Assembly (NCBI GenBank): GCA_903824575.1
Contig: CAIJXJ010000262.1
Span: 1 to 64,000 of the forward strand
Source of the DNA: an uncultured Methylobacillus sp.
GTDB lineage: Bacteria > Pseudomonadota > Gammaproteobacteria > Burkholderiales > Methylophilaceae
Length of the DNA: 64,000 nt
Direction of reading: 5' to 3'
Shown: piece after piece, positions 7,421-35,017 of the stretch
How the letters are laid out: each line of letters begins with the position of its first letter
Numbering within the stretch: position 1 is the first letter of the stretch
Position numbers and translations under genes: made by a program
The notes under the pieces: model-generated
Seen by the model: only the letters and a program-made list of their open reading frames with translations
The model's database searches: none
Told to the model about the DNA's origin: nothing

Positions 7421-8413
7421 TCAAAACCCCGCTGGCCATACGAACGCGTCAGATCCGGTTGGGTCTTCTTCTGCAAGACCCGTTTCCAGATCGCCAGCGC
7501 GGCCGGCATAACACTCCTTGATGATTTCCATGAAGCGTTGTGCCTGCGGCGTCACATAACGAGCATTCCGCTGCACCAGGCCATAACTTCGACGCGGGAA
7601 ATAATCAATCAAGGAAATTTTTGCAACCTTCTCCTGGCCGGTCAAACAAATATCGGTGACGATGGAGATGCCCATGCCAAGTTCGACGTATTTCTTGATG
7701 ATTTCCCAGCCACCGGCTTCAAGCGCGACGGTGTAGCCCAAGCCGGCCTGGCGAAAGGTGTAATCGACCGTGCGCCAGGTTGAGAGGTGTCGTGGTGGCA
7801 GAATGAGGCCGAATGGGCTGATATCGGCCAGGGTGACTTGTTCTCGTTCCGCTAGTGGATGGTCGAGCGGGGTGATCAACATGGGGTCATAGCTTACCAC
7901 CGGTTGGTAGTGAATATCCTCCTGCCCTTCCAGCATCGAGCCTACCGCAAAATCAATCTCATCGGCGCGCAGCATGCGCAAGCCATCGCGCCCGGTGACG
8001 TTGTGCAACTTGATACGCACGTTCGGATATGCGGCTGCGAAGCGTCTTACCGGTTCAGGCATGATGTAAAGAATGGTCGATTCACCCGCGCCGATGTTGA
8101 CCTCACCCGAATCGAGATGTCCGAATGTCGCGGCGAAGGTCTCCTCCAACTTGTCCATGCCTTCGACCAGCGGTTGAGCGATGTGATAGAGCACCTCCCC
8201 CTGTGGCGATATCTTCAGCCGGGGCCCGCGCCGTTCAAATAATTTCACTGACAGTTCTCGCTCCAGTGCCTGGATCTGCAGAGACACTGAGGGCTGGCTT
8301 TGAAACAGCTTTTCTGCGGCAGTGGAAATGCCGCCGCTCTTGACGACCTGACAAAATGCACGCAATTGCTTGAGCCTGTTTTGTTTGTAATAGTAATTTC
8401 TCGGTTCTGCCAT
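7421..8413 (-). CDS. LysR-type transcriptional regulator
   Basis: A 330-residue LysR-family regulator. The N-terminal winged helix-turn-helix is clear (LKQLRAFCQVVKSGGISTAAEKLFQSQPSVSLQIQALERELSVKLFERR, seen from about residue 14), followed by the usual two-lobed effector-binding domain. It is divergent from the rnfB-nifJ-rnf operon with a 178-base gap. That is the classic arrangement in which a LysR regulator controls the facing operon and itself. The effector cannot be read from sequence; pyruvate, a thiol or redox state are only guesses. An inverted repeat with T-N11-A geometry sits just upstream of its start. Confidence 0.88.
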   Translation of the reverse strand: MAEPRNYYYKQNRLKQLRAFCQVVKSGGISTAAEKLFQSQPSVSLQIQALERELSVKLFERRGPRLKISPQGEVLYHIAQPLVEGMDKLEETFAATFGHLDSGEVNIGAGESTILYIMPEPVRRFAAAYPNVRIKLHNVTGRDGLRMLRADEIDFAVGSMLEGQEDIHYQPVVSYDPMLITPLDHPLAEREQVTLADISPFGLILPPRHLSTWRTVDYTFRQAGLGYTVALEAGGWEIIKKYVELGMGISIVTDICLTGQEKVAKISLIDYFPRRSYGLVQRNARYVTPQAQRFMEIIKECYAGRAGDLETGLAEEDPTGSDAFVWPAGF

Positions 8414-8432: not shown

Positions 8433-8449
8433 TATTCACAATATGAATA
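8433..8449. promoter_or_regulatory. LysR-type operator (perfect TATTC-N7-GAATA inverted repeat)
   Basis: TATTCACAATATGAATA is a perfect dyad with a 7-base spacer and contains the T-N11-A core expected of LysR-family sites. It lies 20-36 bases before the lysR start and about 145 bases before rnfB. That position fits autoregulation plus long-range control of the divergent operon. The repeat is seen; binding is inferred. Confidence 0.5.
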
Positions 8450-8591
8450 TACATTATTGAAACTATTGTTGTGTCAAATAATTGAATACCCCATAGACTG
8501 CGATTAAACAATGTCCATATTTTAAATATTGACTAAATTTGTCGGGTATTAAAGCCCGCACACAGGGCTTGAAGGGGAGGAGAAAACACGT

Positions 8592-9467
8592 ATGTTGACC
8601 ATTGTCATCGTGGCGATATTCATGGCAACACTGGGCACCAGCCTGGCAGCACTGCTTGCCGTGGCCAGCCGCCGCCTGTACGTGCATGAGGATCCGCGCA
8701 TCGAACAGGTGGAAGCGATGTTGCCACATTCCAATTGTGGCGCATGCGGGACAGCCGGTTGCCGTAATTTTGCCGAAAAAGTGGTGGCGGGTGAACTCAA
8801 ACCTGGACGTTGTACCGTCAATGCTTTGCAGCAGAATACCGTCATCGCCGGCCTGCTCGGTGTTGATACCGGTCAGGAAGAAAAACGCGTGGCACGTCTC
8901 GCTTGCGCCGGTGGTAAGCATGTCGCCGTCATGCGCGCACATTACGAAGGCCTCGCCAGTTGCCGTGCAGCAGATTCCGTCGGCGGTGGTGGCAAGGCCT
9001 GTGCTTGGGGGTGCCTTGGCCTCGGCGACTGCGCAGCCGTTTGCGATTTCAACGCTATCAGCATGAACCGTTTTGGCCTGCCGGTCGTGGATTTGGCCAA
9101 ATGTACTGCCTGTGGTGATTGCGTGGACATCTGCCCAAAGGGTCTGTTTTCGCTACATGGCATCAGCCAACAGTTATGGGTTGCCTGTAACAACCGCGCT
9201 AAAGGCGACGTCGCCGAATTGCAGTGCGAAGTCGCTTGCACTGCCTGCGGTCGATGCGTGGTGGATGCGGCTGAAAATATGATCACACTCAAGCAAGATC
9301 TCGCGGTGATCGACTACGCACAAAATGCGTATGCGACACCCACTCCCACCGAACGTTGCCCGACCGGGGCTATCGTCTGGCTGGATGATGTCAGGGGTGC
9401 CCTGCGTGGCAAGGGCGCCCGGAAAATCGTGAGGCAGCAGGCGCTGCCCGTCCTGTCAGAAGGGTGA
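8592..9467 (+). CDS. rnfB: Rnf complex subunit B (polyferredoxin)
   Basis: A 291-residue membrane-anchored iron-sulfur protein. Residues 1-25 form one hydrophobic helix. The RnfB-specific cluster domain follows (SNCGACGTAGC...GRC, near residue 50). Further clusters are suggested by ACAWGCLGLGDCAAVC, CTACGDCVDICPKG, CEVACTACGRCVVD and ERCPTGAI. RnfB takes electrons from ferredoxin and passes them into the Rnf membrane complex. The many cysteines resemble the longer RnfB form found in anaerobes rather than the short gamma-proteobacterial one. GGGGAGGAG precedes the ATG. It is the first gene of the operon and lies 11 bases before nifJ, apart from the rest of rnf. Confidence 0.88.
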   Translation: MLTIVIVAIFMATLGTSLAALLAVASRRLYVHEDPRIEQVEAMLPHSNCGACGTAGCRNFAEKVVAGELKPGRCTVNALQQNTVIAGLLGVDTGQEEKRVARLACAGGKHVAVMRAHYEGLASCRAADSVGGGGKACAWGCLGLGDCAAVCDFNAISMNRFGLPVVDLAKCTACGDCVDICPKGLFSLHGISQQLWVACNNRAKGDVAELQCEVACTACGRCVVDAAENMITLKQDLAVIDYAQNAYATPTPTERCPTGAIVWLDDVRGALRGKGARKIVRQQALPVLSEG

Positions 9468-9478
9468 AGGAGAATAGC

Positions 9479-12400
9479 ATGCTGAAAAACATACTCAAGG
9501 AATTCAATCTGCTGGAAGCCGGTGTGGGTGGCAAGCGCGTCAAGCAGACATTCAAATATCCAGGCATCAAGGATGCCATCGATGGTAATACTGCGGTCAT
9601 CATGGTCGAGCGGGAGGCGTCTGATGCAGCCGGCGCCTATCCCATCACGCCTTCGACCCAGATGGGTGAGTATTGGTCGGAGGCGGTTGCCAACGGCCAC
9701 GTTAACCAGTCCGGACGTCCGTTGATCTTCGTGCAGCCGGAATCCGAGCATGCTGCCGCCGGCGTGACCGCTGGCATGGCAATGACGGGACTGCGCGCGG
9801 TCAATTTCACCTCGTCGCAAGGCATGGCTTTCATGCATGAATCGCTCTACGCGGCGGTCGGCAAGCGCCTGCCTTATGTTCTGAACCTTGGCTGTCGCGC
9901 TATTACCAAGGCTACGCTCAACGTGCACTGTGGCCATGACGATTACCATTGCGCCGATGACACCGGTTTCATCCAGGTGTTTGCACGCAATGCGCAGGAA
10001 GCTGCTGACCTCAACATGATCGCACGCAAGACTGCCGAACTCTCGCTGACGCCGGCCATGGTTGCTCAGGATGGCTTCCTCACGACGCATCTGATCGAGC
10101 CGGTGATGGTGCCGGAAAAGGCTCTGGTGGCCGAGTTTCTGGGGCGACCGGACGACATCATAGATACGCCGACACCGGCGCAGAAAATACTCTATGGCGA
10201 TAAGCGTCGCCGCATCCCCGTGCTGTGGGATGTGGATCACCCGATGGCCTCGGGCGCGGTGCAGAATCAGGATGCTTATATGCAAGCGGTCGCTGCTCAG
10301 CGTCCTTATTTCTTCGAGCATATTGACCCGTTGGCCGAAACTTGCATGGACGAATTCTATGCGCTGACCGGCCGCCGCTATCATCGTGTCGCCACCTACA
10401 AGACCGAGGATGCCGACTGGATCATCCTTGGCCAGGGCAGCATGATCGTGCAGGCCGAGGCAGTGGCCGATTACCTGCGCGCAACACGTAAACTTAAAGT
10501 CGGTGTAGTCAACATCACCATGTTCCGGCCTTTCCCCGGCAATCTGCTGGGCCAGATCCTGAAGGGTAAGCAGGGCGTGGTGGTACTTGAGCGTACCGAT
10601 CAGCCGCTGGCTGAAGACTTGCCCTTGATGCGCGAGGTGCGTTCCACCGTGAACAAGTGCACTGAAAACGGTGCCTCCAGTGTGGCGAGCAAGCGCGGCA
10701 ACACGATTCGGGAACAGGCACATGCTGGTTACGCCTCCTACAATAGCGGGGAAATGCCGCGACTCTATTCGGGTTGCTACGGCCTCGGCTCGCGCGACCT
10801 GCAACCGGAGGCGCTGATCGGTGCCATCGAGAATATGCTGGATGGCGGCACGCAGCGGCCGTTCTTTTACCTGTCGGTGGATTTCGTGCGCGATGGCGAG
10901 ATGACGCCGAAACAGGAAATCCGTCAGCAAACCCTTCTTGATGGCTATCCGAATATCCGCGAACTGGCCGTGCGCGGCAGTGAAAACCCCAATCTGCTGC
11001 CCAAGGGTGCGATCGCGGTGCGCATGCACTCGGTTGGCGGTTGGGGTGCGGTGACCACTGGAAAAAATCTCGCGGTCACGCTATTCGAACTGTTGGGCTG
11101 GGACATTAAGGCCAATCCCAAGTATGGATCGGAAAAAAAGGGACAGCCCACGACTTATTATCTCTGCGCCGCGCCCGAACCCATCCGCATCAATTGCGAA
11201 TACACCCACGTCGATGTCGTGATGTCACCTGACCCTAACGTATTCAGCCATACCAACGCTCTGACCGGACTCAAGGACGGCGGTGTATTCATCATCCAGA
11301 GCAGTCTCGCGACAGCACAAGAGGTTTGGGCCAGCCTGCCGCAGCAAACACGCCGGCATATTGTCGAACACAAGCTCCGGGTGTTCTTTCTGGATGCATT
11401 CAAGATCGCCCGCGAAGAAGCCTCTAATGCCGACCTGCAATTGCGTATGCAGGGTAATGCTTTTCAGGGTGCGTTCTTTGCCGCGTCCCCCGTCATGGCG
11501 CAGGCAGGTCTGACGGACGTAGAGTTGTTCGCTGCGATCGAGAACCAGCTTGAGGCCAAGTTTGGCAAGAAAGGCAAGCGTGTGGTCGAGGACAATCTGC
11601 GCGTGGTCAAACGCGGCTTTCTCGAAATGCACGAGATCAGCGGGATGGCGCTGGAATCTTCCCCGCAAATCCAGTTACGGCGAGAAATAGCCTTGCCCAT
11701 GATGCTCAAGAAATTGCCTGCAGGCGATGGCGGCATTGCTGATATTCAGCGTTTCTGGGAGCAGACGGGCAGTTTCTACCAGACCGGACAAGGCTCGGAC
11801 AATTTGATCGACCCTTTCATCGGGCTGTCCCTGATGCCGGCCGCGACTGGCGTGTTCCGCGACATGACGCAAATTCGTTTTGATCAGCCCGAGTGGATCC
11901 CGGAAAACTGCACGGCCTGTGGAAACTGCTACACCGAGTGCCCGGACAGTGCGATCCCGGGCCTCGTCAGCACCATTGCGGACGTATTCAACACTACCGT
12001 CACACGCATTGAGCGTAGCCGCCCGACGCATTACTTGAGGCGGGCGCTGCGAACCACCGAGAAGAAGCTGCGTCTGCTGATTGCTGCCGACGGCGAGGCG
12101 TCGCGGGTGCGCGCCCAACTGGATCAGGCCATCGATGCGACCTTGGCCGAGAGCCAGGAGGACGAGCGCGAAAAGCTGACGCGCGAATTTGCGTTGTTTC
12201 GCGAGGCCATCGGTGATTTCCAGTTTTCCATTACCAAGCCTTATTACAGCAACAGGGAAAAGAAGGCCAAGGGGAGTGGCGGACTGTTCGCCATTACCGT
12301 CAATCCCTATACCTGCAAGAGCTGCCGTATTTGCGTGGATGTGTGCGAAGACGATGCCTTGCGCATGATCACGCAGACGCCGGCCAGCACCGAAGTTCTG

Positions 12401-14437
12401 CGTCGTGACTGGAATTTCTGGACAGACCTGCCGACTACTCCGCCTGAATACAGCCGTATCGACAGCCTGGACGAAAAAATTGGTGCGCTGGAAACCCTAC
12501 TGCTGGACAAACGCAACTACGCCTCGCTGGTCGGGGGTGACGGTGCTTGCCTGGGTTGTGGCGAGAAGACGGCGATTCATCTGTTCACGGCCACTGTAAC
12601 CGCGCTGATGCAACCCCGCGTCAAGGCGCATGTGGCTAAACTCGATGCGCTGATTGTCAGACTGGAAAACCACATCCGCATGAAGCTTACCGCTTCGCTG
12701 GATCTGACCGATGCGGTCGCCATGACGCGTGCGGTAGACGCCCACCGCAACGAAGACCTGACGCTGTCGAATCTATCGGCCAGCCTGGATATCGATCATG
12801 CGACAGAACCGCTGGACCAGGAATGGTTGCGCCGAGTGTCGCGTCTGCTCGACCAGTTGCGCATGCAGCGCTGGATGTACGTGGAAGGGCCTTCCAGTCA
12901 TGGCCGCTCTGAGATGGGCGTGGTCAATTCCACCGGATGTACCTCGGTCTGGGGCTCCACCTTTCCCTACAATCCCTATCCTTTTCCCTGGACCTCCAAC
13001 CTGTTCCAGGACTCCCCATCTGTCGCCATGGGTTTGTTCGAGGGGCACATGGTTAAAATGGCGGACGGCTTCAAGGCCGTGCGCATGGCCGAACTTGAGC
13101 TGGCAGACAAATACGATCCGTCCGCGCACGACGCTTTCTTCACCCACCTCAACTGGCATCAGTTTACCGACGATGAGTGGCAGTTGTGTCCGCCGGTAGT
13201 CGCCATCGGTGGCGACGGCGCCATGTATGACATCGGCTTCCAGAATCTCTCTCGCATGATGATGTCAGGCATCCCGGTTAAGGTGCTGGTGGTGGACACA
13301 CAGGTTTATTCCAATACCGGCGGCCAGGCCTGTACATCGGGCTTTATCAGCCAGGTCGCCGACATGTCGCCCTATGGTAAGGCGATGCAGGGCAAGCAAG
13401 AAATCCGTAAGGAAATCTGCGTGATCGGCATGGCGCACCGCTCTGCCTACGTGCTGCAGGGGGCGATTTCCAATGTCACGCATCTGCTGGAGGGCTACAT
13501 CGACGGGCTCAATTCGCGCCGTCCTGCACTATTCAACATCTATGCCGTGTGTCCGCCTGAACACGGGGTTGGCGACGAACTTGCGGTGCAGCAAAGCAAG
13601 TTGGCAGTGGAGTCGCGCGCCTATCCCCTGTTCAAGTATGACCCGGATGCTGGCGTGACCTTTTCGGAATGCGTGAGCTTGGATGGCAATCCCGCCATGG
13701 AATCCGACTGGCCGACTTATGCGCTGGACTATCTGGACGAAAATCAGCAAGCCGCCAAGCTCAAGGTGCCGATGACCTTCGCCGATTTTGCCCTGACCGA
13801 AGGCCGCTTTGCCAAGCAGTTCAAGAAGGCACCTCCGGAAACCTGGAACGATGACCAGGTGCCGCTGGCCGACTTCCTGGCCATGGACAAGGATGGGCAG
13901 GACGGCAAATTTCCCTTCATTTGGGCGGTGGATGGCAAGCAGCGTCTGATCCGTGTCTTGGTGTCCCAAGCACTGGTGCTTGCCTGCAACGAACGCCAGG
14001 CATTCTGGAAGCAACTCAAGGACGTGGCAGGCCTCGGCCATCCGGCGGTCGATACGGATGCGATCGCGGAGCAGGCGCGGGCAGATCTGATCCAGAAGCT
14101 GACCGCCAGCCTCACCTCCTTTGGCGGCGGCTCGCCTGTGACCAGTGACCAGCCCGGGACCGCCTCCGTTTCGACCGCGCCGGTGGACTTTGATGCGGTC
14201 TGGATCGACACCCCGGAATGCACTGCCTGTGATGAGTGTATCAACATCAACGATCATATTTTTGCTTATAACGAGCAGAAAAAAGTGGTCATCCTTAACC
14301 CGCAGGGAGGGAAATACGTCGACATCGTCAAGGCCGCAGAAAAGTGCACGGCCGGCTGCATCCATCCGGGCACCCCCTGGAACAGGAGCGAACCGGGACT
14401 CGACAAGTTGATGCAACGTGCGACGAAATTCAACTAA
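9479..14437 (+). CDS. nifJ: Giant pyruvate:ferredoxin (flavodoxin) oxidoreductase
   Basis: A 1652-residue, single-chain 2-oxoacid oxidoreductase that interconverts pyruvate + CoA and acetyl-CoA + CO2 with ferredoxin or flavodoxin. The N-terminal pyrimidine-binding domain (AYPITPSTQMGEYWSEA) is followed by the CoA-side and gamma domains, a ferredoxin-type pair of clusters (CTACGNCYTECP from residue 811, CKSCRICVDVCEDD from 946), and the thiamine-diphosphate domain (GACLGCGE; GGDGAMYDIGFQ around 1246; QVYSNTGGQ). Usual NifJ proteins have about 1170-1200 residues. Here an ~80-residue helical insertion splits the TPP domain after GACLGCGEK, and ~250 extra residues at the C-terminus carry another Cys motif (CTACDEC from 1581, later KCTAGC). 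The ATG at 9479 has AGGAGAA before it. It is nested inside the rnf operon. Confidence 0.9.
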   Translation: MLKNILKEFNLLEAGVGGKRVKQTFKYPGIKDAIDGNTAVIMVEREASDAAGAYPITPSTQMGEYWSEAVANGHVNQSGRPLIFVQPESEHAAAGVTAGMAMTGLRAVNFTSSQGMAFMHESLYAAVGKRLPYVLNLGCRAITKATLNVHCGHDDYHCADDTGFIQVFARNAQEAADLNMIARKTAELSLTPAMVAQDGFLTTHLIEPVMVPEKALVAEFLGRPDDIIDTPTPAQKILYGDKRRRIPVLWDVDHPMASGAVQNQDAYMQAVAAQRPYFFEHIDPLAETCMDEFYALTGRRYHRVATYKTEDADWIILGQGSMIVQAEAVADYLRATRKLKVGVVNITMFRPFPGNLLGQILKGKQGVVVLERTDQPLAEDLPLMREVRSTVNKCTENGASSVASKRGNTIREQAHAGYASYNSGEMPRLYSGCYGLGSRDLQPEALIGAIENMLDGGTQRPFFYLSVDFVRDGEMTPKQEIRQQTLLDGYPNIRELAVRGSENPNLLPKGAIAVRMHSVGGWGAVTTGKNLAVTLFELLGWDIKANPKYGSEKKGQPTTYYLCAAPEPIRINCEYTHVDVVMSPDPNVFSHTNALTGLKDGGVFIIQSSLATAQEVWASLPQQTRRHIVEHKLRVFFLDAFKIAREEASNADLQLRMQGNAFQGAFFAASPVMAQAGLTDVELFAAIENQLEAKFGKKGKRVVEDNLRVVKRGFLEMHEISGMALESSPQIQLRREIALPMMLKKLPAGDGGIADIQRFWEQTGSFYQTGQGSDNLIDPFIGLSLMPAATGVFRDMTQIRFDQPEWIPENCTACGNCYTECPDSAIPGLVSTIADVFNTTVTRIERSRPTHYLRRALRTTEKKLRLLIAADGEASRVRAQLDQAIDATLAESQEDEREKLTREFALFREAIGDFQFSITKPYYSNREKKAKGSGGLFAITVNPYTCKSCRICVDVCEDDALRMITQTPASTEVLRRDWNFWTDLPTTPPEYSRIDSLDEKIGALETLLLDKRNYASLVGGDGACLGCGEKTAIHLFTATVTALMQPRVKAHVAKLDALIVRLENHIRMKLTASLDLTDAVAMTRAVDAHRNEDLTLSNLSASLDIDHATEPLDQEWLRRVSRLLDQLRMQRWMYVEGPSSHGRSEMGVVNSTGCTSVWGSTFPYNPYPFPWTSNLFQDSPSVAMGLFEGHMVKMADGFKAVRMAELELADKYDPSAHDAFFTHLNWHQFTDDEWQLCPPVVAIGGDGAMYDIGFQNLSRMMMSGIPVKVLVVDTQVYSNTGGQACTSGFISQVADMSPYGKAMQGKQEIRKEICVIGMAHRSAYVLQGAISNVTHLLEGYIDGLNSRRPALFNIYAVCPPEHGVGDELAVQQSKLAVESRAYPLFKYDPDAGVTFSECVSLDGNPAMESDWPTYALDYLDENQQAAKLKVPMTFADFALTEGRFAKQFKKAPPETWNDDQVPLADFLAMDKDGQDGKFPFIWAVDGKQRLIRVLVSQALVLACNERQAFWKQLKDVAGLGHPAVDTDAIAEQARADLIQKLTASLTSFGGGSPVTSDQPGTASVSTAPVDFDAVWIDTPECTACDECININDHIFAYNEQKKVVILNPQGGKYVDIVKAAEKCTAGCIHPGTPWNRSEPGLDKLMQRATKFN

Positions 14438-14460
14438 AAACAGGATGCAAGGAAAACCTG

Positions 14461-14628
14461 ATGACCACCAGTGATAGCAAGCCCGTGAATCCATTACCGA
14501 TGCCTGCCATGCCGGAATCTGTCCGGTTTGTTAGTGCCCAGCCGGTTCCAGGGAAGGCTCGCGGTAACAGCGAGCCTATGACTAGTGAGTTCTACAGCCT
14601 GATCTGGGGCGACTGCATCGCCGACTGA
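14461..14628 (+). CDS. Small protein between nifJ and rnfC
   Basis: A 55-residue ORF starting ATG at 14461, with AAGGAAAA as ribosome site. It fills the gap between nifJ and rnfC (23 bases after one, 16 before the other). It is rich in Pro and Ser in its first half and ends in EFYSLIWGDCIAD. I do not recognise it. Its tight fit in the operon, good ribosome site and typical spacing argue that it is translated. No signal peptide or membrane segment is visible. Confidence 0.5.
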   Translation: MTTSDSKPVNPLPMPAMPESVRFVSAQPVPGKARGNSEPMTSEFYSLIWGDCIAD

Positions 14629-14644
14629 AGAAAGATTCAATCCC

Positions 14645-15988
14645 ATGGGTATCGCTGAATTATTTTTGAAATCCTCCTTTGCGCGCGGCGTTCATCCGGT
14701 AGCGCACAAGGAAACAGCCGGCAAGCCGATACGTCGCATGCCGTTTGCACAGCGCCTGGTGCTGCCGTTGTCGCAACATATCGGCAAGCCGTCACGAGCC
14801 CTGGTCAGGGTCGGCGAGGAAGTCGTGCGTGGACAACCAATCGCCGAGGCCGATGGTGCCATGTCGGTTCCACTGCATGCGCCAGCCGACGGCGTGATCG
14901 AGGCTATTGGCCTGCACGTTTCGGCGCGTGGTCCGTGGACCGAGTCTATTGTGCTGCGGGTGTATCAGGGTTCGCCCCAACGAGTCGCCTGGGCCGATCC
15001 AGTCGATCCCGAGCGCTTGGATCACGAACAGCTGATCGCTGCCATTCAGGCCACCGGCATGGTAGGGCTGGGGGGTGCCGCCTTCCCCAGCCATCTCAAG
15101 CTCGGTGTTCCAGTCGAACATCCCATTCATACTCTGGTCGTCAATGGTTGTGAATGCGAGCCTTACCTCACCTGCGACCACAGGCTGATGCTGGAGTACC
15201 CGCAGGACCTGATCGCCGGCATTCGCCTCGCCATGCGTGCGCTTGGTGCCAGTCGTGCCATGATAGGAGTGGAGGACAACAAGGTCGATGCCCTCATTGC
15301 CATTCGCCCGCATTTGCCTGCTGATGGGTCAATCAGCGTGCACGCCGTCGAAACCAAGTACCCGCAAGGAGCGGAAAAAATGCTGATCAAATCCCTGCTG
15401 GGACAGGAAGTGCCGGCGGGAGGCTTGCCGATGCAACTTGGTATCGTGGTTAACAATGTTGGTACCCTGGCCATGCTGGGACGCCTGATCAAGAGCGGCG
15501 AGGGCATGACGGAACGGGTGGTCACCATTACCGGCCCAGGCATCGCCAAACCCGGCGACTATTGGGTGCCGATCGGCACGCCACTGCGTGATTTGTTGGC
15601 GTGGGCAGGCGCACGGGATTGCACGGAACGTGAGGTTATCCTGGGCGGGCCGATGATGGGTCAGTCTGTCGCCTCTCTTGATGTGCCCATCAGTAAGGGG
15701 GTGTCGGGTGTTCTGGTGTTCGACCGGCGAGAGGCGCATGCCCCTGCCGCAAAGAACTGGCCTTGCATCCATTGCGGTGCCTGCATCGATGCCTGCCCGA
15801 TGGGGCTCAATCCCACCTTGCTGGGCCTGCTCGTCGCCAAGCGCGAGTTTGAGCAAATGGCGGGGAAATATCATCTTGGCGACTGCTTCGAGTGTGGCTG
15901 TTGTACCTATGCCTGCCCTTCGCAGATTCCACTGGTTCAGCAATTCCGTGCCGCCAAAGCGTTCCTGCGCGCGAGAGCCTCTGCATGA
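14645..15988 (+). CDS. rnfC: Rnf complex subunit C
   Basis: A 447-residue peripheral subunit expected to bind NADH and FMN and to carry two [4Fe-4S] clusters. The glycine-rich segment GMVGLGGAAFPSHLK and NGCECEPYLTCD are family hallmarks. Two C-terminal cluster motifs are present: CIHCGACIDACPMGL and CFECGCCTYACPSQIPL. A barrel-sandwich-like N-terminal domain (VPLHAPADGVIEAI) is typical. It accepts or donates electrons at the NAD side of Rnf. The stop codon overlaps the rnfD start. Confidence 0.92.
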   Translation: MGIAELFLKSSFARGVHPVAHKETAGKPIRRMPFAQRLVLPLSQHIGKPSRALVRVGEEVVRGQPIAEADGAMSVPLHAPADGVIEAIGLHVSARGPWTESIVLRVYQGSPQRVAWADPVDPERLDHEQLIAAIQATGMVGLGGAAFPSHLKLGVPVEHPIHTLVVNGCECEPYLTCDHRLMLEYPQDLIAGIRLAMRALGASRAMIGVEDNKVDALIAIRPHLPADGSISVHAVETKYPQGAEKMLIKSLLGQEVPAGGLPMQLGIVVNNVGTLAMLGRLIKSGEGMTERVVTITGPGIAKPGDYWVPIGTPLRDLLAWAGARDCTEREVILGGPMMGQSVASLDVPISKGVSGVLVFDRREAHAPAAKNWPCIHCGACIDACPMGLNPTLLGLLVAKREFEQMAGKYHLGDCFECGCCTYACPSQIPLVQQFRAAKAFLRARASA

Positions 15989-17019
15989 AACCAACCATTG
16001 AACTGCGTGCCGCCCCTCATGTCCACAGCGGGATTAGCGTACCGGTCATCATGCGCAATGTGGTCGGGGCGTTGCTTCCGATTTGTGCATTTTCGGTCTG
16101 GCAGTACGGAATTTCCGCTGCTGCATTGATCCTTACCGTGACGGCAAGCTGTTTACTGACGGAGCGATTCTTTTCTTCCCGTACCGGACTCGGCAACACG
16201 CTGGCCGACTGGAGCGCTGCCATCACTGGCATCCTGTTGGCGCTGACGCTGCCGCCGAATTTTCCGCTTTGGATGGGTGTGGTGGCGGGATTTATCGCAA
16301 TCGCCCTTGGCAAATCTCTGTTTGGTGGTATGGGATTCAATCCTTTTAACCCGGCGCTGGTAGGGCGTGCCTTCGTGCAGGGGGCATTTCCCTCCACCAT
16401 TGCCTCCTTCGTGCCGTCCTATGCGCCGCAACGCTTCACCGAGTTCGTGCCCTCCACGCTCACTGCGCCGCTGATGCAAGCCGCTGATAACAGTGCCTGG
16501 ATCGGTCACGCTGCCATCGATGCCTTTACCGGAGCAACGCCACTGGCACGCTGGAAATTTGAGAATTTCACTTACTCTGCAGGCGACTTCATGACCGGCG
16601 TGGTCACGGCTTCTGCCGGCGAAACATCGGCCATTCTGATCCTGGCCTGCGGAGTCTATCTGGCAATGCGGCGATATTTGGACTGGCGCATCCCAGTCGC
16701 CGTGCTGGGTAGCGCGCTGATCCTGGCCTGGGCGTTTCATCTTGCGGTGCCGGCTCGATATCCGGAGCCTGTGTTCGTGCTGCTTTCAGGCGGCCTGATG
16801 CTGGGTGCAATCTTCATGGCGACCGACATGGCAACTTCCCCCGTCACACCGGTAGGCGTTTGGATCTATGGGGCACTGATCGGAATCGTTTCAGTGGTCA
16901 TTCGCTATTTCGGCGGCCTGACCGAGGGTGTGATGTACGCCATCCTGATCGCCAATGCCGCTTCTCCGCTGATCGATCAAATGACGCAGCCAAAAGTTTT
17001 TGGGGCCAGGTCTCGATGA
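15985..17019 (+). CDS. rnfD: Rnf complex subunit D
   Basis: A 344-residue integral membrane subunit with about nine or ten hydrophobic helices. The motif AFTGATPLARWK contains the Thr to which FMN is covalently linked in RnfD/NqrB-type proteins, and FNPFNPALVGRAF is also typical. The start ATG (ATGAAACC) overlaps the rnfC TGA in an ATGA arrangement, implying translational coupling; an upstream in-frame start would run deep into rnfC and is rejected. RnfD is part of the ion-translocating core. Confidence 0.92.
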   Translation: MKPTIELRAAPHVHSGISVPVIMRNVVGALLPICAFSVWQYGISAAALILTVTASCLLTERFFSSRTGLGNTLADWSAAITGILLALTLPPNFPLWMGVVAGFIAIALGKSLFGGMGFNPFNPALVGRAFVQGAFPSTIASFVPSYAPQRFTEFVPSTLTAPLMQAADNSAWIGHAAIDAFTGATPLARWKFENFTYSAGDFMTGVVTASAGETSAILILACGVYLAMRRYLDWRIPVAVLGSALILAWAFHLAVPARYPEPVFVLLSGGLMLGAIFMATDMATSPVTPVGVWIYGALIGIVSVVIRYFGGLTEGVMYAILIANAASPLIDQMTQPKVFGARSR

Positions 17020-17690
17020 GCCGCGATCCTGAAATAACCTCCAGTACTGACATGATCCGTGCCTTGGGGCTGATCGCAGCGATCTGCGGCATCATCATCG
17101 TCGGGGTGTACGAGTTCACGCTTGATGCTGTTAACGCCAACAAGAAAATCGCCTTGGAGCGCCAGGTGTTCAAGGTGTTTCCACATGCCAAGACCGTGGA
17201 CGCCTTCGATGCGTTGCCTGGCGGAATTTCACCCGCCGGCGACCACGATGCGCTTGCCGGCGCAGTCCGGTTTTATGCCGCCTACGACGCCACCGGAAAA
17301 CTGGCGGGGATTGCCGCCGAGGGCTCGTCTGCCGGTTATGCGGATCAGGTGCGAGTGCTCTATGCCTGGGACCCGGAGAAACAACTGATTATTGGCCTGG
17401 GTGTGATTTCCATGCGCGAAACGCCGGGCATTGGCGACAAGATCCTGGTCGACCGGGACTTTCTGCACAATTTCGTCGCCCTGGATGTCTCGTTGGCGGC
17501 GGATCTCAATAGCCTGGCCCACATGGTCAAGACGGTGAAACACGGAACAAAGAGCCATGACTGGGAGATCGACGCCATTTCTGGTGCGACGGTAACCTCC
17601 AAGGCGGTCGGGCGCGGAATCAATCAGTCGGCCCAGGCCTTGCTGCCTAGATTGATGCCCCATCTCGCGCAACTGAGGAACAAATCATGA
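17016..17690 (+). CDS. rnfG: Rnf complex subunit G
   Basis: A 224-residue subunit with one N-terminal membrane helix (MIRALGLIAAICGIIIVGVY) and a periplasmic FMN-binding domain. The covalent flavin site SGATVTSKAV lies near the C-terminus, with the acceptor Thr in the SGAT(V)T motif. It transfers electrons between RnfD/RnfE and the rest of the complex. The start overlaps the rnfD stop (ATGA), and the stop overlaps the rnfE start. Confidence 0.92.
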   Translation: MSRDPEITSSTDMIRALGLIAAICGIIIVGVYEFTLDAVNANKKIALERQVFKVFPHAKTVDAFDALPGGISPAGDHDALAGAVRFYAAYDATGKLAGIAAEGSSAGYADQVRVLYAWDPEKQLIIGLGVISMRETPGIGDKILVDRDFLHNFVALDVSLAADLNSLAHMVKTVKHGTKSHDWEIDAISGATVTSKAVGRGINQSAQALLPRLMPHLAQLRNKS

Positions 17691-18337
17691 CGTCATTGGT
17701 AAGCAATTTCGACGAGTTCATGGATGGCCTGTGGAAGCAGAACCCGATCTTTGTCATGGTGCTCGGCATGTGCCCGACGCTTGCGGTTACAGTATCGGCC
17801 ATCAATTCCATCTCTATGGGACTGGCGACAACATTCGTGCTGGTCGCTTCCTGCCTGCTGGTCTCGCTATTACGCCATGCCATTCCAAAGGAAGTGCGCA
17901 TCGCCAGCTACATCGTCATCATCGCCACCTTTGTGACGGTTGTTGATTACGCCATTCAGGCCATCAGCCTCGAACTCTACGAAGCACTGGGCGCCTACAT
18001 CAAGCTCATTGTTGCTAACTGTATCCTGCTGGGTCGGGCGGAAGCCCATGCCGCCAAGACGCCGCCGGTTGCCGCATCACTCAACGCCTGTGGCATGGGC
18101 CTCGGTTTCACGCTGGGCTTGCTGGCGATCGGTGCCGTGCGTGAAATTTTTGGTTCCGGCATGCTGTTTGGGGTCTCCCTGTTCGGTCCCCACTTCCAGC
18201 CCTGGGTGATCATGGTGTTGCCACCGGGGGGATTCTTTGTGCTGGCCGGATGGTTGATTCTGTTTGCCGCGATCAAGGCCAGGAACAGTTCACAACTGAG
18301 TTCTGGCGAACGGGCCCTGGAAGGAGGCAAATCATGA
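17687..18337 (+). CDS. rnfE: Rnf complex subunit E
   Basis: A 216-residue integral membrane protein with six predicted helices, paralogous to RnfA. Conserved cysteines in LGMCPTLAVTVS and IVANCILLGRAEA are those thought to hold an iron centre between RnfA and RnfE within the membrane. Its start overlaps the rnfG stop and its stop overlaps the rnfA start, continuing the chain of four-base overlaps. Confidence 0.92.
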   Translation: MTSLVSNFDEFMDGLWKQNPIFVMVLGMCPTLAVTVSAINSISMGLATTFVLVASCLLVSLLRHAIPKEVRIASYIVIIATFVTVVDYAIQAISLELYEALGAYIKLIVANCILLGRAEAHAAKTPPVAASLNACGMGLGFTLGLLAIGAVREIFGSGMLFGVSLFGPHFQPWVIMVLPPGGFFVLAGWLILFAAIKARNSSQLSSGERALEGGKS

Positions 18338-18921
18338 ACCACGACAGCATTGCCAACATCCTGCTGACGACAATGCTGCCCGGTAACTTTGTGCTGGCCA
18401 TGTTCCTTGGCATGTGTCCGTTTCTTGGTGTGTCACAGAAGTTGGAGACCGCCATCCCGATGGGATTGGCCACTGCCTTCGTCATCATGGTGGCCTCAAT
18501 CTCGGCCTATTTCATGAACATGCTTCTGTTGCATTTTCATCTGGAATTCCTCAGCGTGATTACCTTCATTACGGTGATCGCCTGTACCGTACAACTGGTG
18601 GAAATGTTCGTTAAAAAATATTTCCCGCTGCTGTTCCGCCAATTAGGCATCTACCTGCCGCTCATTACCACCAATTGCGCCGTGTTGGGGGTCGCACTGT
18701 TTCAGACAGCTCGTCAGTACGACTTCTTGCAGTCAGTGGCCTATAGCTTTGGCGGCGGCATGGGATTCACACTGGCGCTGATCCTGATGGCGGGCCTGCG
18801 TGAGCGCCTGCAACTGGCCAATGTGCCGACCTTGGTCCAAGGGGCCGCCATCAGCCTGATTGTCGGCGGATTACTCTCTCTTTCTTTTATGGGTTTTTCC
18901 GGCATTGGAGGCGGTGAATGA
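18334..18921 (+). CDS. rnfA: Rnf complex subunit A
   Basis: A 195-residue, six-helix membrane protein paralogous to RnfE. The motifs LGMCPFLGVSQ and TTNCAVLGVAL carry the paired Cys residues of this family. The start ATG lies in the rnfE stop (ATGA) and is preceded by GGAGG. With RnfE it should form the pseudo-symmetric membrane core of the complex. Confidence 0.92.
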   Translation: MNHDSIANILLTTMLPGNFVLAMFLGMCPFLGVSQKLETAIPMGLATAFVIMVASISAYFMNMLLLHFHLEFLSVITFITVIACTVQLVEMFVKKYFPLLFRQLGIYLPLITTNCAVLGVALFQTARQYDFLQSVAYSFGGGMGFTLALILMAGLRERLQLANVPTLVQGAAISLIVGGLLSLSFMGFSGIGGGE

Positions 18922-19112
18922 TTACGACCGTCCTGATCACGAGTTTCATCATCGTTCTGGTTTTGGTGGTGTACGTGAAAGTCGGTGACTTGAGCCGAAA
19001 TTTCGCCGAGCATCATCCCGAGTTCGGTCCCTATCGTGAAAGACATGGCGGTTGCTGCGGCGCTTGTCCGGAAGAGACCTGCCAAAAACATCAAGATGAA
19101 AAAAGAGGCTGA
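18918..19112 (+). CDS. Small Cys-rich membrane protein ending the rnf operon (NqrM-like architecture)
   Basis: A 64-residue protein with one N-terminal transmembrane helix (TVLITSFIIVLVLVVYV) and a soluble tail with four cysteines in the cluster GGCCGACPEETC. It overlaps the rnfA stop by four bases, so it is translated as part of the complex operon. Architecture and context recall NqrM, the maturation factor that supplies iron to the NqrD/NqrE pair (homologues of RnfE/RnfA), although the cysteine pattern differs. A role in loading the RnfA/RnfE iron centre is inference. A small accessory subunit is the alternative. Confidence 0.65.
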   Translation: MITTVLITSFIIVLVLVVYVKVGDLSRNFAEHHPEFGPYRERHGGCCGACPEETCQKHQDEKRG

Positions 19113-30820: not shown

Positions 30821-30905
30821 AAGTATCATCCTATTCGTGGTGGCTGCCTTGCCGCCAAGATCACAATAATGGTTGCGACCTATAACGAGGAGAGGGGAAG
30901 CAGAA

Positions 30906-31988
30906 ATGGCTAGCGAAACGTTTTATGAGGTGATGCGGCGGCAGGGAATTACGCGTCGAAGTTTCATGAAGTTCTGCAGCCTGACGGCTGCATCTCTGGG
31001 GCTGGCGCCAGCTTTTGCGTCAAAAATTGCAAATGCCATGGAAACCAAGCCACGCACACCGGTGATCTGGTTGCATGGGTTGGAATGTACCTGCTGTTCA
31101 GAGTCCTTCATCCGTTCGGCGCACCCACTGGCCAAGGATGTGGTGCTCTCCATGTTATCGCTGGATTATGACGATACGTTGATGGCAGCAGCCGGGCATC
31201 AGGCCGAAGCTGCGCTGGAAGAAATCAAGAAAAAATATAAGGGCAACTACATTCTTGCGGTGGAAGGCAATCCTCCGCTCAACGAAGATGGCATGTACTG
31301 CATCCAGGGTGGACGGCCGTTCGTGGAAGTTTTGAAAGAAACCGCTGCTGATGCCAAGGCCATCATTTCTTGGGGTGCCTGCGCCTCCTGGGGTTGCGTG
31401 CAGGCGGCCAAGCCGAACCCGACCCGGGCGACACCGGTGCACAAGGTCATCACCGATAAGCCCATCATCAAGGTGCCCGGTTGTCCACCCATTGCGGAAG
31501 TGATGACGGGTGTCATCACTTATATGCTGACCTTCGATCGTCTGCCGGAACTGGATCGCCAGGGCAGGCCGAAGATGTTTTACGGCCAGCGCATCCATGA
31601 TAAGTGCTACCGCCGTCCGCATTTCGATGCCGGCCAGTTCGTGGAATCATGGGACGACGATGGTGCGCGCAAGGGCTTTTGCCTTTACAAGATGGGCTGC
31701 AAGGGGCCAACTACTTACAACGCCTGTTCCACCATGCGCTGGAACGGCGGCGTGTCCTTCCCAATCCAGTCCGGCCATGGCTGTATTGGTTGCTCGGAAG
31801 AAGGCTTCTGGGACAAGGGCGGCTTCTACAATCGAGTCACCAATATCAATCAATTCGGTATCGAAGCCAATGCTGACAAGGTCGGCGGTACGCTCGCCGG
31901 TGTGGCCGGAGCCGCAGTGGTAGCTCACGCCGCAGTCAGTGCGCTGAGTCGCGCACGTAGCGGCAAGACAGAACAAGGAGAGAAATAA
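30906..31988 (+). CDS. hupS: Uptake [NiFe] hydrogenase small subunit, O2-tolerant type
   Basis: A 360-residue electron-transfer subunit (HoxK in Ralstonia). The Tat signal [10 protein letters not shown] leads to a predicted cleavage after ANA at residue 44. Mature-protein cysteines fall at positions equivalent to 17, 19, 20, 115, 120 and 149 (motifs [21 protein letters not shown]). These are the six ligands of the [4Fe-3S] proximal cluster that gives O2 tolerance. Medial and distal cluster Cys/His residues are present in the C-terminal half. A C-terminal hydrophobic helix ([17 protein letters not shown]) should anchor it to the membrane. The ATG at 30906 follows a strong GAGGAGAGGGG site. It exits the cell folded with HupL and feeds electrons to HupC. 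Confidence 0.96.
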
Positions 31989-31990
31989 TC

Positions 31991-33787
31991 ATGGCTGCCT
32001 ATGAAACCCAGGGCTTCAAGATGGATAACAGCGGCAAACGCGTGGTGGTTGACCCGGTGTGCCGCATCGAAGGCCATATGCGTGTTGAGGTTAACCTCAA
32101 CGACAAGAACGTGATCACTAATGCCGTTTCTACCGGCACCATGTGGCGCGGGCTGGAAGTGATACTGAAGGGACGCGATCCGCGCGATGCTTGGGCCTTC
32201 ACTGAGCGTATCTGCGGTGTCTGTACCGGCACCCATGCACTGACTTCGGTGCGCGCGGTGGAATCGGCTCTTAACATCCAGATCCCGGAAAACGCCAACA
32301 CCATACGCAATATCATGCAGCTCAATTTGTATGTGCATGACCATCTGGTGCATTTTTACCACCTGCACGCGCTGGATTGGGTGGATGTGGTGAGTGCGCT
32401 GTCGGCCGATCCCAAGAAAACTTCGGAACTTGCGCAGAGCATTTCAGACTGGCCGCTGTCGTCTCCCGGTTATTTCCGCGATGTGCAGAACAGACTCAAG
32501 AAATTCGTGGAATCTGGTCAATTGGGCCCGTTCATGAATGGGTACTGGGGTAACCCGGCCTACAAGCTGCCACCTGAAGCTAATCTGATGGCGGTGACGC
32601 ATTATCTGGAGGCGCTCGATTTCCAAAAGGAAATCGTCAAGATACATACCATCTTCGGTGGCAAGAATCCGCACCCGAACTGGCTGGTGGGGGGTGTGCC
32701 GTGCGCCATCAACATCAATGATACCGGTGCGGGTGGTGCGATCAACATGGAGCGCCTCAATCAGGTGAAGAGCATCATCGACCGTTCGCGCGAGTTCATC
32801 GAAAAGGTCTATTTGCCTGATCTCCTGGCGATCGCCACGTTCTACAAGGGATGGGGTTTCGGCGGTGGCTTGTCGGGCAAGAACATGCTTTCCTACGGTG
32901 ATATTCCACAGCGTGCCAATGATTACACCGCGGCCAACCTGTTGTTCCCACGCGGCGCCATTATCAACGGCGATCTGTCCAAGATCCATGAAGTGGATCT
33001 TAACGATCCGGAGCAGATTCAGGAGTTCGTCACCCATTCCTGGTACAAATACCCGGATGAAACGAAAGGCTTGCATCCGTTCGATGGCATCACCGAGCCG
33101 AATTTCGAGCTTGGCCCAAAAACTAAAGGAACCAAGACCCGAATCGAGGAGTTGGACGAATCTGCCAAGTATTCCTGGATCAAGGCGCCGCGTTGGCGTG
33201 GTAATGCCATGGAGGTCGGCCCTCTGTCGCGCATGGTGCTGGGTTATTTGCAGCCCAAGCAGTTCCCGTTCATCAAGGAAACCATAGACGGCGTGTTGCA
33301 CAAACTGGATCTGCCGGTGACGGCGCTGTTTTCCACGCTGGGGCGCACTGCCGCTCGTGGCATCGAAACCTTGTATTGTGCGAAGTTGCAGACGGAGCAG
33401 TTTGATAAGTTGATTGCCAATTTGAAGGCTGGCGATTCGGCTACTGCCAATGTCGAGAAGTGGGATCCTGCCAGCTGGCCCAAGGAAGCCCGTGGTGCCG
33501 GCTTTACTGAAGCCCCGCGAGGCGCGCTGGGGCACTGGATCAAGATCAAGGATACTAAAATCGACAATTATCAGTGCGTGGTGCCAACCACCTGGAACGG
33601 TGGTCCGCGCGACCCCAAGGGTCAGATCGGAGCGTTCGAGGCGTCTTTGATGGATACGCCACTGGCGGTTCCCGATCAGCCGCTGGAAATCCTGCGCACT
33701 TTGCACAGCTTCGACCCCTGCCTGGCATGTTCCACCCATGTCATGACGCCAGACGGTAGCGAGCTGACCCAGGTCACAGTACGTTAA
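31991..33787 (+). CDS. hupL: Uptake [NiFe] hydrogenase large subunit
   Basis: A 598-residue catalytic subunit (HoxG) that splits H2 at a NiFe(CN)2CO centre. The N-terminal ligand motif is RICGVC and the C-terminal one is [10 protein letters not shown] 15-residue tail ([15 protein letters not shown]) after the final His is removed by the HupD protease once nickel is inserted. The group 1 signature [10 protein letters not shown] is near the N-terminus. It has no signal of its own and is carried through the Tat pathway by HupS. The start lies 2 bases after hupS. Confidence 0.96.
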
Positions 33788-33799
33788 GGGGAGCGAATC

Positions 33800-34504
33800 A
33801 TGTCTGTTGATATAGCAAGCAATGCCGACCTTGAAACTGCGGCCGGCAATACCGTGTATGTGTATGAGGCTCCGGTGCGCTTGTGGCACTGGATAAACGC
33901 GCTCTCCATCGTGGTGCTGGCAGTGACCGGTTATCTGATTGCGAGTCCGTTGCCCAGCGTAGGTGGCGAGGCGAGTGATAATTTCCTGATGGGCTATATT
34001 CGCTTCACCCACTTTACTGCTGCCTACGTATTTGCCATCGGTTTTCTGGTTCGCCTCTACTGGGCCGTGGTGGGTAATCATCACGCCAGGCAACTGTTTC
34101 TGCTGCCACTGAACGATGCCAAATGGTGGGCTGGGATCTGGCATGAGCTACGCTGGTATTTTTTCTTCGAAAAGCTGACGCAAAAATATGTGGGACATAA
34201 TCCACTGGCACACCTGTGCATGTATCTGGCTATCACCGTGGGCGGCCTGTTCATGATCGTGACCGGCTTCGCGCTTTATGGTGAGGGTGCGCAGGAAGGT
34301 CACTGGTCACACGCCCTGTTTACATCTTGGGTGATTCCGCTGTTCGGACAGAGCCAGAGCGTGCACAGCTGGCATCATCTGGCGGCATGGGGCATCGTGA
34401 TTTTCATCATGATTCATATCTATGCCGCGTTGCGCTGGGAATTCATGTCGCGTCAAACTGTGATCAGCAGCATGATCAGCGGTACCCGCACCTTCCGGGA
34501 ATGA
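33800..34504 (+). CDS. hupC: Hydrogenase cytochrome b subunit
   Basis: A 234-residue di-haem cytochrome b (HoxZ) linking HupSL to the quinone pool. Four hydrophobic helices and paired histidines (VRLWHWINAL near the start, FTHFTAAYVFAIGF, WHHLAAWGIVIFIMIHIYAALRWEF in two parts) are those of the Ni/Fe-hydrogenase cytochrome b family. GGGGAG precedes the ATG. It closes the structural gene set hupSLC. Confidence 0.94.
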   Translation: MSVDIASNADLETAAGNTVYVYEAPVRLWHWINALSIVVLAVTGYLIASPLPSVGGEASDNFLMGYIRFTHFTAAYVFAIGFLVRLYWAVVGNHHARQLFLLPLNDAKWWAGIWHELRWYFFFEKLTQKYVGHNPLAHLCMYLAITVGGLFMIVTGFALYGEGAQEGHWSHALFTSWVIPLFGQSQSVHSWHHLAAWGIVIFIMIHIYAALRWEFMSRQTVISSMISGTRTFRE

Positions 34505-34535
34505 ATATGGCTTGAACCTTAAGCATCGTCAATAT

Positions 34536-34859: not shown

Positions 34860-34968
34860 CTTCCACAAATTCCACATAACGGAAACTTAGTTTTCACTTT
34901 TGTTCGGGCTGCGTTTCGTGCCCACCGTTAACAGGCTGTTTCCAAATAGCATTTATTTTTCGTCGGAT

Positions 34969-34984
34969 TGGCATGATCCCTGCT
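34969..34984 (+). promoter_or_regulatory. Second sigma54-like promoter, before hupD
   Basis: TGGCATGATCCCTGCT has the invariant GG-N10-GC spacing of sigma54 promoters (GG at 34970-34971, GC at 34982-34983). It lies about 34 bases before the hupD start, in the 158-base gap after the HigA-like gene. It could let the maturation genes be transcribed separately from hupSLC. The motif is seen; use in vivo is inferred. Confidence 0.45.
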
Positions 34985-35017
34985 GTGTTACAGTATCCGT
35001 TACATGTCGAGTTTGCG

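Follow-up and report, generated by a model that had tools for sequence, protein, structure and literature searches.

The window analysed here, a stretch of 64,000 nucleotides, carries a cluster of rnf genes on its plus strand. The gene rnfB (8592..9467) encodes a polyferredoxin-type RnfB of 291 residues with 20 cysteines and is followed by nifJ (9479..14437), which encodes a giant NifJ, a pyruvate:ferredoxin oxidoreductase (PFOR)-like protein of 1652 residues. Downstream lie rnfC (14645..15988, 447 residues), rnfD (15985..17019, 344 residues), rnfG (17016..17690, 224 residues, FMN-binding), rnfE (17687..18337, 216 residues), rnfA (18334..18921, 195 residues), and a cysteine-rich ORF of 64 residues with a hydrophobic, membrane-type N-terminus (18918..19112), which matches 49 of 50 clustered homologs and closes the region marked out in the sequence-only reading. 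The subunits RnfA, RnfC, RnfD, and RnfE score at or above their NCBIfam cut-offs (TIGR01943, 229.3 bits, equal to its cut-off; TIGR01945, 491.8 bits, cut-off 245.95; TIGR01946, 281, cut-off 207; TIGR01948, 220, cut-off 213). RnfB and RnfG fall below theirs (TIGR01944, 60.9 bits, cut-off 68.7; TIGR01947, 83.8, cut-off 102), yet their iron–sulfur (PF04060) and FMN-binding (PF04205) domains exceed the Pfam cut-offs; the best NCBIfam matches of RnfB are PRK07118 models, likewise below their cut-offs. Gene calls and family matches bear out the 1652-residue NifJ between rnfB and rnfC that a sequence-only reading had described.

That reading had also described one overlapping operon, which holds for rnfC through the last ORF, where neighbouring cistrons overlap (ATGA), and fails for rnfB and nifJ, which are separated by an 11-nt gap if nifJ starts at its ATG, a codon preceded by GGAG. 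The operon is probably co-transcribed. A scan for sigma-70 promoters and terminators found no more sites than in shuffled sequences (4 versus 4.9 and 8 versus 10.2, respectively), a result that neither shows nor excludes internal promoters. The last 54 residues of the 55-residue ORF between nifJ and rnfC (14461..14628, plus strand) matched nothing in Pfam or NCBIfam, and the ORF was rejected as a conserved subunit since a by-eye comparison found no similar ORF in the nifJ–rnfC gaps of relatives; it is probably outside the system. Among the matches listed, 48 of 69 loci have a homolog of the 64-residue ORF after rnfA, in the same orientation. This ORF resembles NqrM in what we take to be the NqrM layout alone; neither Pfam nor NCBIfam gave a family match at cut-off, and the ORF was not accepted as NqrM.

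A LysR-type regulator of 330 residues (lysR, 7421..8413, minus strand; PF00126 and PF03466 above cut-off) is divergent from rnfB. The intergenic region contains a putative LysR operator (8445..8468, plus strand) of the class (C/T)AATA-N6-ATTGAAA-N2-ATTG, the window copy of which begins GAATA. The core CAAT-N7-ATTG, with at most 1 mismatch, occurs in 28 of 32 lysR–rnfB intergenic regions (mean 4.0 and maximum 10 in mononucleotide shuffles), which points to a conserved operator-like site before rnfB where the divergent lysR is present. Scanning the genomes of 12 carriers for the operator gave one best site in 11 of them, with two equal one-mismatch sites elsewhere in the other (G146); these genomes were picked among those with the motif already in the rnfB promoter, and the scan mainly reflects rarity of the site elsewhere. 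Control of the unit by the divergent LysR, as first suggested, is consistent with the operator core but does not extend to the whole class, as, among the matches listed, a divergent lysR homolog is present at only 27 of the 70 named loci whose sequence extends 1100 bp or more beyond rnfB on the upstream side.

The giant NifJ belongs to the 2-oxoacid:ferredoxin oxidoreductase superfamily by its domains, its TPP-site residues, and the cysteines of its three core clusters; POR_N (169.2 bits), POR (102.8 bits), and PFOR_II (48.9 bits) all score above the Pfam cut-offs. Comparison with NifJ-type PFORs (TIGR02176; 6cin, 1b0p, and 7plm) revealed the same domain order, the same TPP and three-cluster core, and the same catalytic residues, and T57, E90, R140, N1279, and C1024/1027/1154/1358 of the giant NifJ align with the ordinary NifJ of the window genome. 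The giant protein differs by (i) two helical inserts; (ii) a C-terminal ferredoxin with a fourth cluster; and (iii) its location in an rnf operon. In an alignment with split and ordinary relatives, insert 1 (residues ~856–914; 12044..12220) sits in the ferredoxin-like domain, between its two cysteine motifs, and insert 2 (residues ~1044–1140; 12608..12898; model helices 289–397) lies inside the TPP domain, where it separates the CxxC of the proximal cluster from the third cysteine of that cluster. The model used in the fold search is the part of NifJ from residue 739, and because model residues outside 48–777 were barely tested there, we name the inserts just "helical". The insertion that splits the TPP domain and the C-terminal extension with extra cysteines, both noticed in the sequence-only reading, are real. 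The extension is a single [4Fe-4S] ferredoxin domain (residues ~1575–1652; 14201..14434) behind a flexible linker; it matches PF13370 (30.1 bits, cut-off 24.5, E 8e-7) and, by Foldseek, Desulfovibrio africanus ferredoxin I (1fxr; target TM-score 0.85, with 58 columns at rmsd 0.7, although E is 0.12). The linker has pLDDT <50 at model residues 811–831, so the model fixes no interface for the ferredoxin behind it. Each of the 16 cluster cysteines is conserved without exception in 92 of 92 homologs and is kept in the Persicobacter and Gemmatirosa proteins; the 92 are those of 94 candidates left after L030 and L113, whose tblastn matches started ahead of a stop in the N-terminal region, were set aside. 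No NifJ–Rnf fusion protein was seen, and the word "fusion" used earlier does not apply at the protein level.

Our homolog search gave at least 80 named loci. Among the matches listed, rnfB precedes nifJ in 75 of 75 loci with room, rnfC is next after nifJ in 65 of 65 loci with room, and the order rnfB-nifJ-rnfC-D-G-E-A is found in 56 of 56 named full-context loci; chance is therefore no explanation of the arrangement. The pairing of NifJ with a dedicated Rnf, proposed from one locus, is kept across beta- and gammaproteobacteria and in two other phyla: Gemmatirosa (Gemmatimonadota) has the same order, and Persicobacter (Bacteroidota) has a rearranged one with rnfB moved. Within the family of the window organism, the arrangement is patchy: it was found in the window genome and one other (G019) of the 60 genomes searched, and the two congeners are without it. 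A search of plasmids for the giant NifJ gave 36 records, two of which hold at least 80% of the protein, and a search of phages gave 15 weak matches, all below 60% identity and none covering 80%. Many sulfur-, iron-, and light-using bacteria hold an extra Rnf copy with an oversized NifJ, ferredoxin included, in its operon; Thiocapsa roseopersicina and Rhodoferax antarcticus are among the carriers.

A passage of PMC4014512 gives the Chlorobi/Bacteroidetes Rnf gene order as rnfBCDGEA, which is shared once nifJ is omitted; the window class adds nifJ between rnfB and rnfC. Classical proteobacterial Rnf systems (rnfABCDGE, including nif-linked ones) have homologous subunits but another gene order, are without nifJ in the 15 loci read, and place their RnfD on a separate branch. 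In the RnfD tree, which supports the assignment of the window rnfD, a branch with support 100/100 separates the 25 operon-linked rows from 14 other RnfD found in carrier genomes; the tree holds 39 of the 40 intended rows, L156 being left out for the same kind of cause as L030 and L113. The nearest relatives of the giant NifJ among the tree sequences are compact two-gene PFOR relatives (L122, L123, and L145) and a giant of 1677–1679 residues (L142–L144), the latter from a subsample; none has an rnf gene in the fetched flanks. The compact form L122 is without insert 2 and the ferredoxin tail, and the rnf-less giant has inserts and a cysteine-bearing tail. Docking on RnfB, suggested earlier for the extra domains, is therefore unlikely to be their sole purpose, and the tail may serve any partner. 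No description of the order rnfB-nifJ-rnfC was found in the search listings and passages of open-licence PMC full text that were read, and we regard the operon as a variant on the known PFOR and Rnf systems that is apparently undescribed there.

Other Rnf and NifJ copies were searched for in 38 carrier genomes of our choice. A further rnfC, taken to mark the classical Rnf, is present in 37 of them. An ordinary NifJ above cut-off was not found in 29, by a search that also failed to recover the giant protein in two genomes. The window genome has an ordinary NifJ of 1203 residues elsewhere. A normal NifJ elsewhere, combined with models that place the extensions away from any Rnf interface, had been named at the outset as a refutation, and the first half of this pair is thus seen in this organism; the presence of that NifJ speaks against a dedicated machine there.

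The neighbouring genes vary among the 69 loci considered (all counts among the matches listed). The gene ppsA (PEP synthase) is downstream on the same strand in 17 loci, and ppsR is downstream in 8 of the 69 and upstream in 4 loci; both are protein clusters, one copy of each of which was named by NCBIfam over a cut-off or subfamily cut-off. The conversion of pyruvate to PEP is the gluconeogenic step, and at part of the loci this context leans to Rnf-driven pyruvate synthesis. A flavin reductase gene is downstream in 24 of the loci and fits both directions. No ppsA, ppsR, or reductase gene was found in 26, including the nearest relatives of the window (L009 and L027), in flanks that in some cases reach little more than 1 kb; these loci count against a reductive reading. 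In five Sedimenticola-like loci, a peroxiredoxin-type gene lies between nifJ and rnfC.

We give about even odds to the interpretation in which the operon supplies a dedicated Rnf complex along with a PFOR of its own that has a tethered ferredoxin, together acting as an Rnf-driven, reversible pyruvate synthase. Electrons from NADH would enter at RnfC, and the ion gradient across RnfA, RnfD, RnfE, and RnfG would push them to low potential on RnfB. From there they would pass through the tethered ferredoxin domain on the C-terminus of NifJ and on to the three core clusters of that protein. Acetyl-CoA and CO2 would then be joined to pyruvate on the TPP of NifJ, and the pyruvate would go to PEP. With spare pyruvate, the machine would run in reverse, with pyruvate oxidation, NADH formation, and ion pumping. 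We tentatively favour the reductive direction as the main one. RuBisCO is found in 13 of 15 giant carriers versus 129 of 261 other genomes of one class sample (p 0.006, by a statistic that ignores kinship), with the match in G196 (1.3e-70) being weak and possibly RuBisCO-like; this sample is a subsample in which the split-form G242 and G349 are left out of the giant carriers, and with both counted, RuBisCO is in 15 of 17 and nifH in 5 of 17.

The opposite main direction has to be weighed. PFOR together with Rnf usually runs in the oxidative direction in fermenters. An abstract on Butyrivibrio likewise states the oxidative direction for NifJ and Rnf. The giant PFOR might thus oxidise pyruvate at low oxygen while Rnf makes NADH and an ion gradient, as an energy-saving substitute for pyruvate dehydrogenase in NADH-short lithotrophs. 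The 29 carriers in which no ordinary NifJ was found above cut-off, the 8 of 38 without an aceE match, and the peroxiredoxin-type gene of the Sedimenticola-like loci, as if protecting oxygen-sensitive catabolism, are in line with such a role. However, aceE is present in 30 of the 38 carriers, among them the window genome, so that most of these organisms already have a route for pyruvate oxidation, and the ppsA and ppsR genes near some loci carry pyruvate toward PEP; we consider the oxidative role possible but rather unlikely. The supply of electrons to nitrogenase, to which Rnf and NifJ both can feed ferredoxin, is a far more doubtful role. The gene nifH is above cut-off in 27 of 53 carriers, the window genome included, in a survey that drew on 49 of the at least 80 named loci, and it is enriched in giant carriers (5 of 15 versus 22 of 261 others, p 0.009, uncorrected). 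Yet about half of the carriers show no nifH. Among the 24 of 38 that have it, 10 have a different rnfC no more than 35 kb from nifH, and none has the giant operon within 100 kb of it on the same contig, a count limited by contig breaks. In the window genome, no rnfC is near nifH. With no nifH seen in about half and, in 10 of those 24, another rnfC nearer to it, we rejected nitrogenase supply as the main role.

The substrate itself could be another 2-oxoacid, in which case the pyruvate label would be wrong. The giant NifJ scores 395.4 bits against TIGR02176, under the curated equivalog cut-off of 911.35, and in alignment it is 28.5% identical to the ordinary NifJ encoded elsewhere in the genome. 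In the fold search, chains of oxalate oxidoreductase (VIA Z 22.3 to 22.8) are tied with PFOR chains (Moorella thermoacetica PFOR, Z 23.7). Against another substrate stand the conserved residues noted above, which we take, in role and numbering, to be those holding TPP and pyruvate in D. africanus PFOR. The best PDB sequence matches are PFOR (E 8e-85 and 7e-79) and not oxalate oxidoreductase (1e-25), 2-oxoglutarate enzymes match lower (Z 13 to 14), everything ranked lower than PFOR and oxalate oxidoreductase is a common type of TPP fold, and ppsA is near some loci. A substrate other than pyruvate is improbable, and pyruvate is the one we infer.

To our knowledge, purple and lithotrophic proteobacteria need a very low-potential ferredoxin and have no photosystem I-type source of it. 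A pangenome study of the Gallionellaceae lists rnf among the genes distinct to iron oxidisers, points out that some genomes with rnf are without nif genes, and calls the specific function of rnf there unknown (PMC10734462). The nifJ–rnf operon gives one Rnf clade a definite partner enzyme and a reaction that can be put to the test. We tentatively envisage, as a less than likely extension of the pyruvate synthase reading, a self-contained carboxylase powered by the ion gradient: a membrane-bound Rnf–NifJ assembly with a swinging tethered ferredoxin that would shuttle electrons directly from RnfB to the PFOR clusters and back, in which NADH and the ion gradient would drive acetyl-CoA and CO2 to pyruvate without a soluble ferredoxin pool in purple sulfur, sulfur-oxidising, and iron-oxidising bacteria. 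If electrons are indeed transferred directly, the complex would be an energy converter in the membrane by which CO2 is fixed onto acetyl-CoA.

The window carries rnfB-nifJ-rnfC-rnfD-rnfG-rnfE-rnfA and a 64-residue cysteine-rich ORF on one strand, with lysR divergent upstream. The sequence-only reading had placed nifJ (9479–14437, +) between rnfB and rnfC beside a divergent LysR gene, and this gene order is confirmed. The gene overlap that it described holds from rnfC through the last ORF, where the start codon of each gene overlaps the preceding stop (ATGA), but not for nifJ, which is separated from rnfB by 11 nt and from rnfC by 207 nt.

The 1652-residue giant NifJ has pyruvate:ferredoxin oxidoreductase (PFOR)-type Pfam domains above cut-off. 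Alignment revealed that T57, E90, R140, and N1279 are the same residues in the ordinary NifJ of this genome; they correspond to T31, E64, R114, and N996 of the D. africanus PFOR. Structural comparison between the model from residue 739 onward and the Moorella PFOR gave Z 23.7 (rmsd 4.5, 454 residues aligned), with which oxalate oxidoreductase subunits were tied (Z 22.8 over 271). The giant is 28.5% identical to the ordinary NifJ and scores 395 bits with TIGR02176, below the 911-bit cut-off. Judged by alignment, its core is PFOR-like, yet the protein as a whole is not a close PFOR. Set against a compact relative encoded by two genes (43.5% identity), its largest gains lie at residues ~856–914, ~1044–1140, and ~1523–1652; alignment and a PF13370 match bear out the insertion (~1044–1140) and the cysteine-bearing C-terminal extension noticed earlier. 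In the AlphaFold model (914 residues, 78 rows, mean pLDDT 80, pTM 0.81), both inserts are helical and the last domain sits beyond a stretch with pLDDT <50.

The PF13370 profile identifies this last domain as a single-cluster ferredoxin, and its fold resembles 1fxr (TMt 0.85, rmsd 0.7, although E is 0.12). Sixteen cysteines, forming four predicted clusters, are invariant in 92/92 homologs examined and recur in the Persicobacter and Gemmatirosa proteins. Profile, predicted fold, and invariant cysteines together make a ferredoxin tethered to the giant NifJ well supported. A 710-residue protein in another genome (locus L012, 14363–16495, −) resembles the last third of the giant and has the same C-terminal ferredoxin (PF13370 above cut-off); it lacks a TPP family match, a proximal-cluster CxxC motif was not seen by eye, and an rnfC match was not found in its genome. 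By sequence, it looks like a non-catalytic paralog.

A scan of named species genomes gave at least 80 loci. Among the matches listed, giant homologs with 63%–73% identity over most or all of their length occur in Rhodocyclales, Gallionellales, Thiobacillaceae, Hydrogenophilus, Rhodoferax, Thiothrix, Venteria, Sedimenticola, Thiodiazotropha, Thiocapsa, Marichromatium, Ectothiorhodospira, and other groups. Where these listed matches had sufficient sequence, rnfB precedes nifJ in 75/75 loci, rnfC lies downstream in 65/65, and the order B-nifJ-C-D-G-E-A is complete in 56/56, so that the search for rnfB-nifJ-rnfC in other genomes found the order upheld. In a class-wide sample, 17/276 genomes had a match at E 1e-150, two being split compact relatives; ten contexts from the remaining matches kept the nifJ-rnf linkage to the contig ends, with one layout change. 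At locus L118, rnfB is relocated after rnfA. The giant operon occurs in 2/60 genomes of the window's family, both congeners being without it, and a phylum-wide sample had the close full-length form in 2/299 (the window's genome and G079). Outside Proteobacteria, Gemmatirosa kalamazoonensis has the window's order and Persicobacter psychrovividus an L118-like order, each on a ~1.1-Mb replicon filed as a plasmid. Because the Persicobacter protein groups with that of L118 (support 100/100), the tree suggests acquisition by transfer.

In the protein tree, in which the program flagged long branches, the giants linked to rnf form a single group (19 rows, 100/99), followed outward by a 1677–1679-residue giant, two-gene forms, and ordinary NifJ. 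The two-gene compact PFORs (L122, 8469–12022; L123, 8093–11591) are adjacent gene pairs, and the L122 copy has neither insert 2 (about residues 1044–1140) nor the ferredoxin tail. The 1677–1679-residue giant (L142, 7709–12748; L143, 7574–12613; L144, 632–5665), from another family of the phylum, has the inserts and a variant cysteine-bearing tail; no rnf match was found in the fetched 8.8–17.8 kb, and the five genomes with it have one rnfC each, elsewhere. Since this adjoining giant has inserts and tail with no rnf nearby, the large size probably arose before, or apart from, the rnf link. An ORF of unknown kind (980 or 958 residues) lies downstream of this giant in L143 and L144.

The RnfD tree separates 25 nifJ-linked rows from 14 other RnfD of the carrier genomes (100/100); the window's RnfD adjoins that of a Methylotenera MAG, a position suggesting that the genome is a member of the Methylophilaceae. 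In fifteen other Rnf loci the genes run A-B-C-D-(G)-E, and nifJ was not matched there. Two or three rnfC were found in 37/38 carriers examined, so the nifJ-linked Rnf is usually an additional, specialised complex. Without nifJ, its operon has the rnfBCDGEA order that PMC4014512 gives for Chlorobi/Bacteroidetes. Extra ORFs, similar by eye, lie between rnfC and rnfD in four loci (L019, 16396–17205; L036, 10388–11266; L077, 7507–8346; L088, 16312–17187), the L088 copy having no Pfam or NCBIfam match. Sedimenticola-like loci have a Redoxin-family (peroxiredoxin-type) gene in the nifJ-rnfC gap (L042, 14935–15441, the copy tested; like places in L047, L050, L070, and L087).

Across 32 lysR-rnfB intergenic regions, including the window's, CAAT-N7-ATTG is exact in 11 (shuffle mean 0.15) and present with at most one mismatch in its eight fixed bases in 28 (shuffle mean 4.0, maximum 10). 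A longer operator pattern, scanned in 12 genomes picked from those already with the motif, marked the rnfB promoter in 12/12, as the sole or best site in 11, with five one-mismatch sites elsewhere; the reversed control pattern gave zero sites in these genomes. Among the matches listed, a divergent lysR homolog is present in only 27/70 loci with room, so the others, including most Rhodocyclales and Chromatiaceae, must be controlled differently.

The reading that we favour, with confidence about evenly divided, is a pyruvate synthase driven by Rnf and able to run backward; operation chiefly in the oxidative direction is less likely. Downstream neighbours were counted in 69 loci with at least 1 kb past rnfA. 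Among these listed matches, 17 have a same-strand ppsA homolog (the single copy tested is PEP synthase, 1199 versus 740 bits), eight have ppsR (four loci have it upstream instead of or besides this count), and 24 have a flavin reductase (in the copy tested, both Pfam domains above cut-off; nearest models BoxA and PetH, below theirs); ppsA and flavin reductase were not seen together, and 26 loci, including the window's closest relatives, have none of the three. Ten further window genes tested did not include ppsA. In part of the loci, these neighbours speak for a role in carbon metabolism. The aceE gene is present in 30/38 carriers, including the window's genome. As for a normal NifJ elsewhere, which the sequence-only reading had weighed, the window's genome (3.66 Mb, 315 contigs) does have one (1203 residues; G000:C261, 48493–52020; L014, 6422–10033, −; TIGR02176, 1696 bits), and 9/38 carriers, this one included, have one above cut-off.

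Carriers more often have RuBisCO (13/15 versus 129/261, p 0.006; one of the 13, G196, by a weak match) and nifH (5/15 versus 22/261, p 0.009), enrichments that are only hints because relatedness was uncorrected. Electron supply to nitrogenase by the giant operon is unlikely, because nifH is above cut-off in 27/53 carriers and, of 24 carriers with nifH, 10 have another rnfC no more than 35 kb from it, whereas in none does the giant operon share a contig with nifH at a distance of 100 kb or less. For purple sulfur bacteria, PMC10609205 lists por/nifJ and rnf separately, under carbon and nitrogen metabolism, and no description of an rnf operon with a giant nifJ was found in open-licence PMC text.

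Elsewhere in the window, 49488–51887 (−) weakly matches a CRISPR-associated primase-polymerase model (80.9 bits, cut-off 200). NiFe hydrogenase small and large subunits and HypF are encoded at 30873–42719, and the genome has RuBisCO and nifH matches; because of these genes, the sequence suggests that hydrogen-based autotrophy may occur in a methylotroph family.
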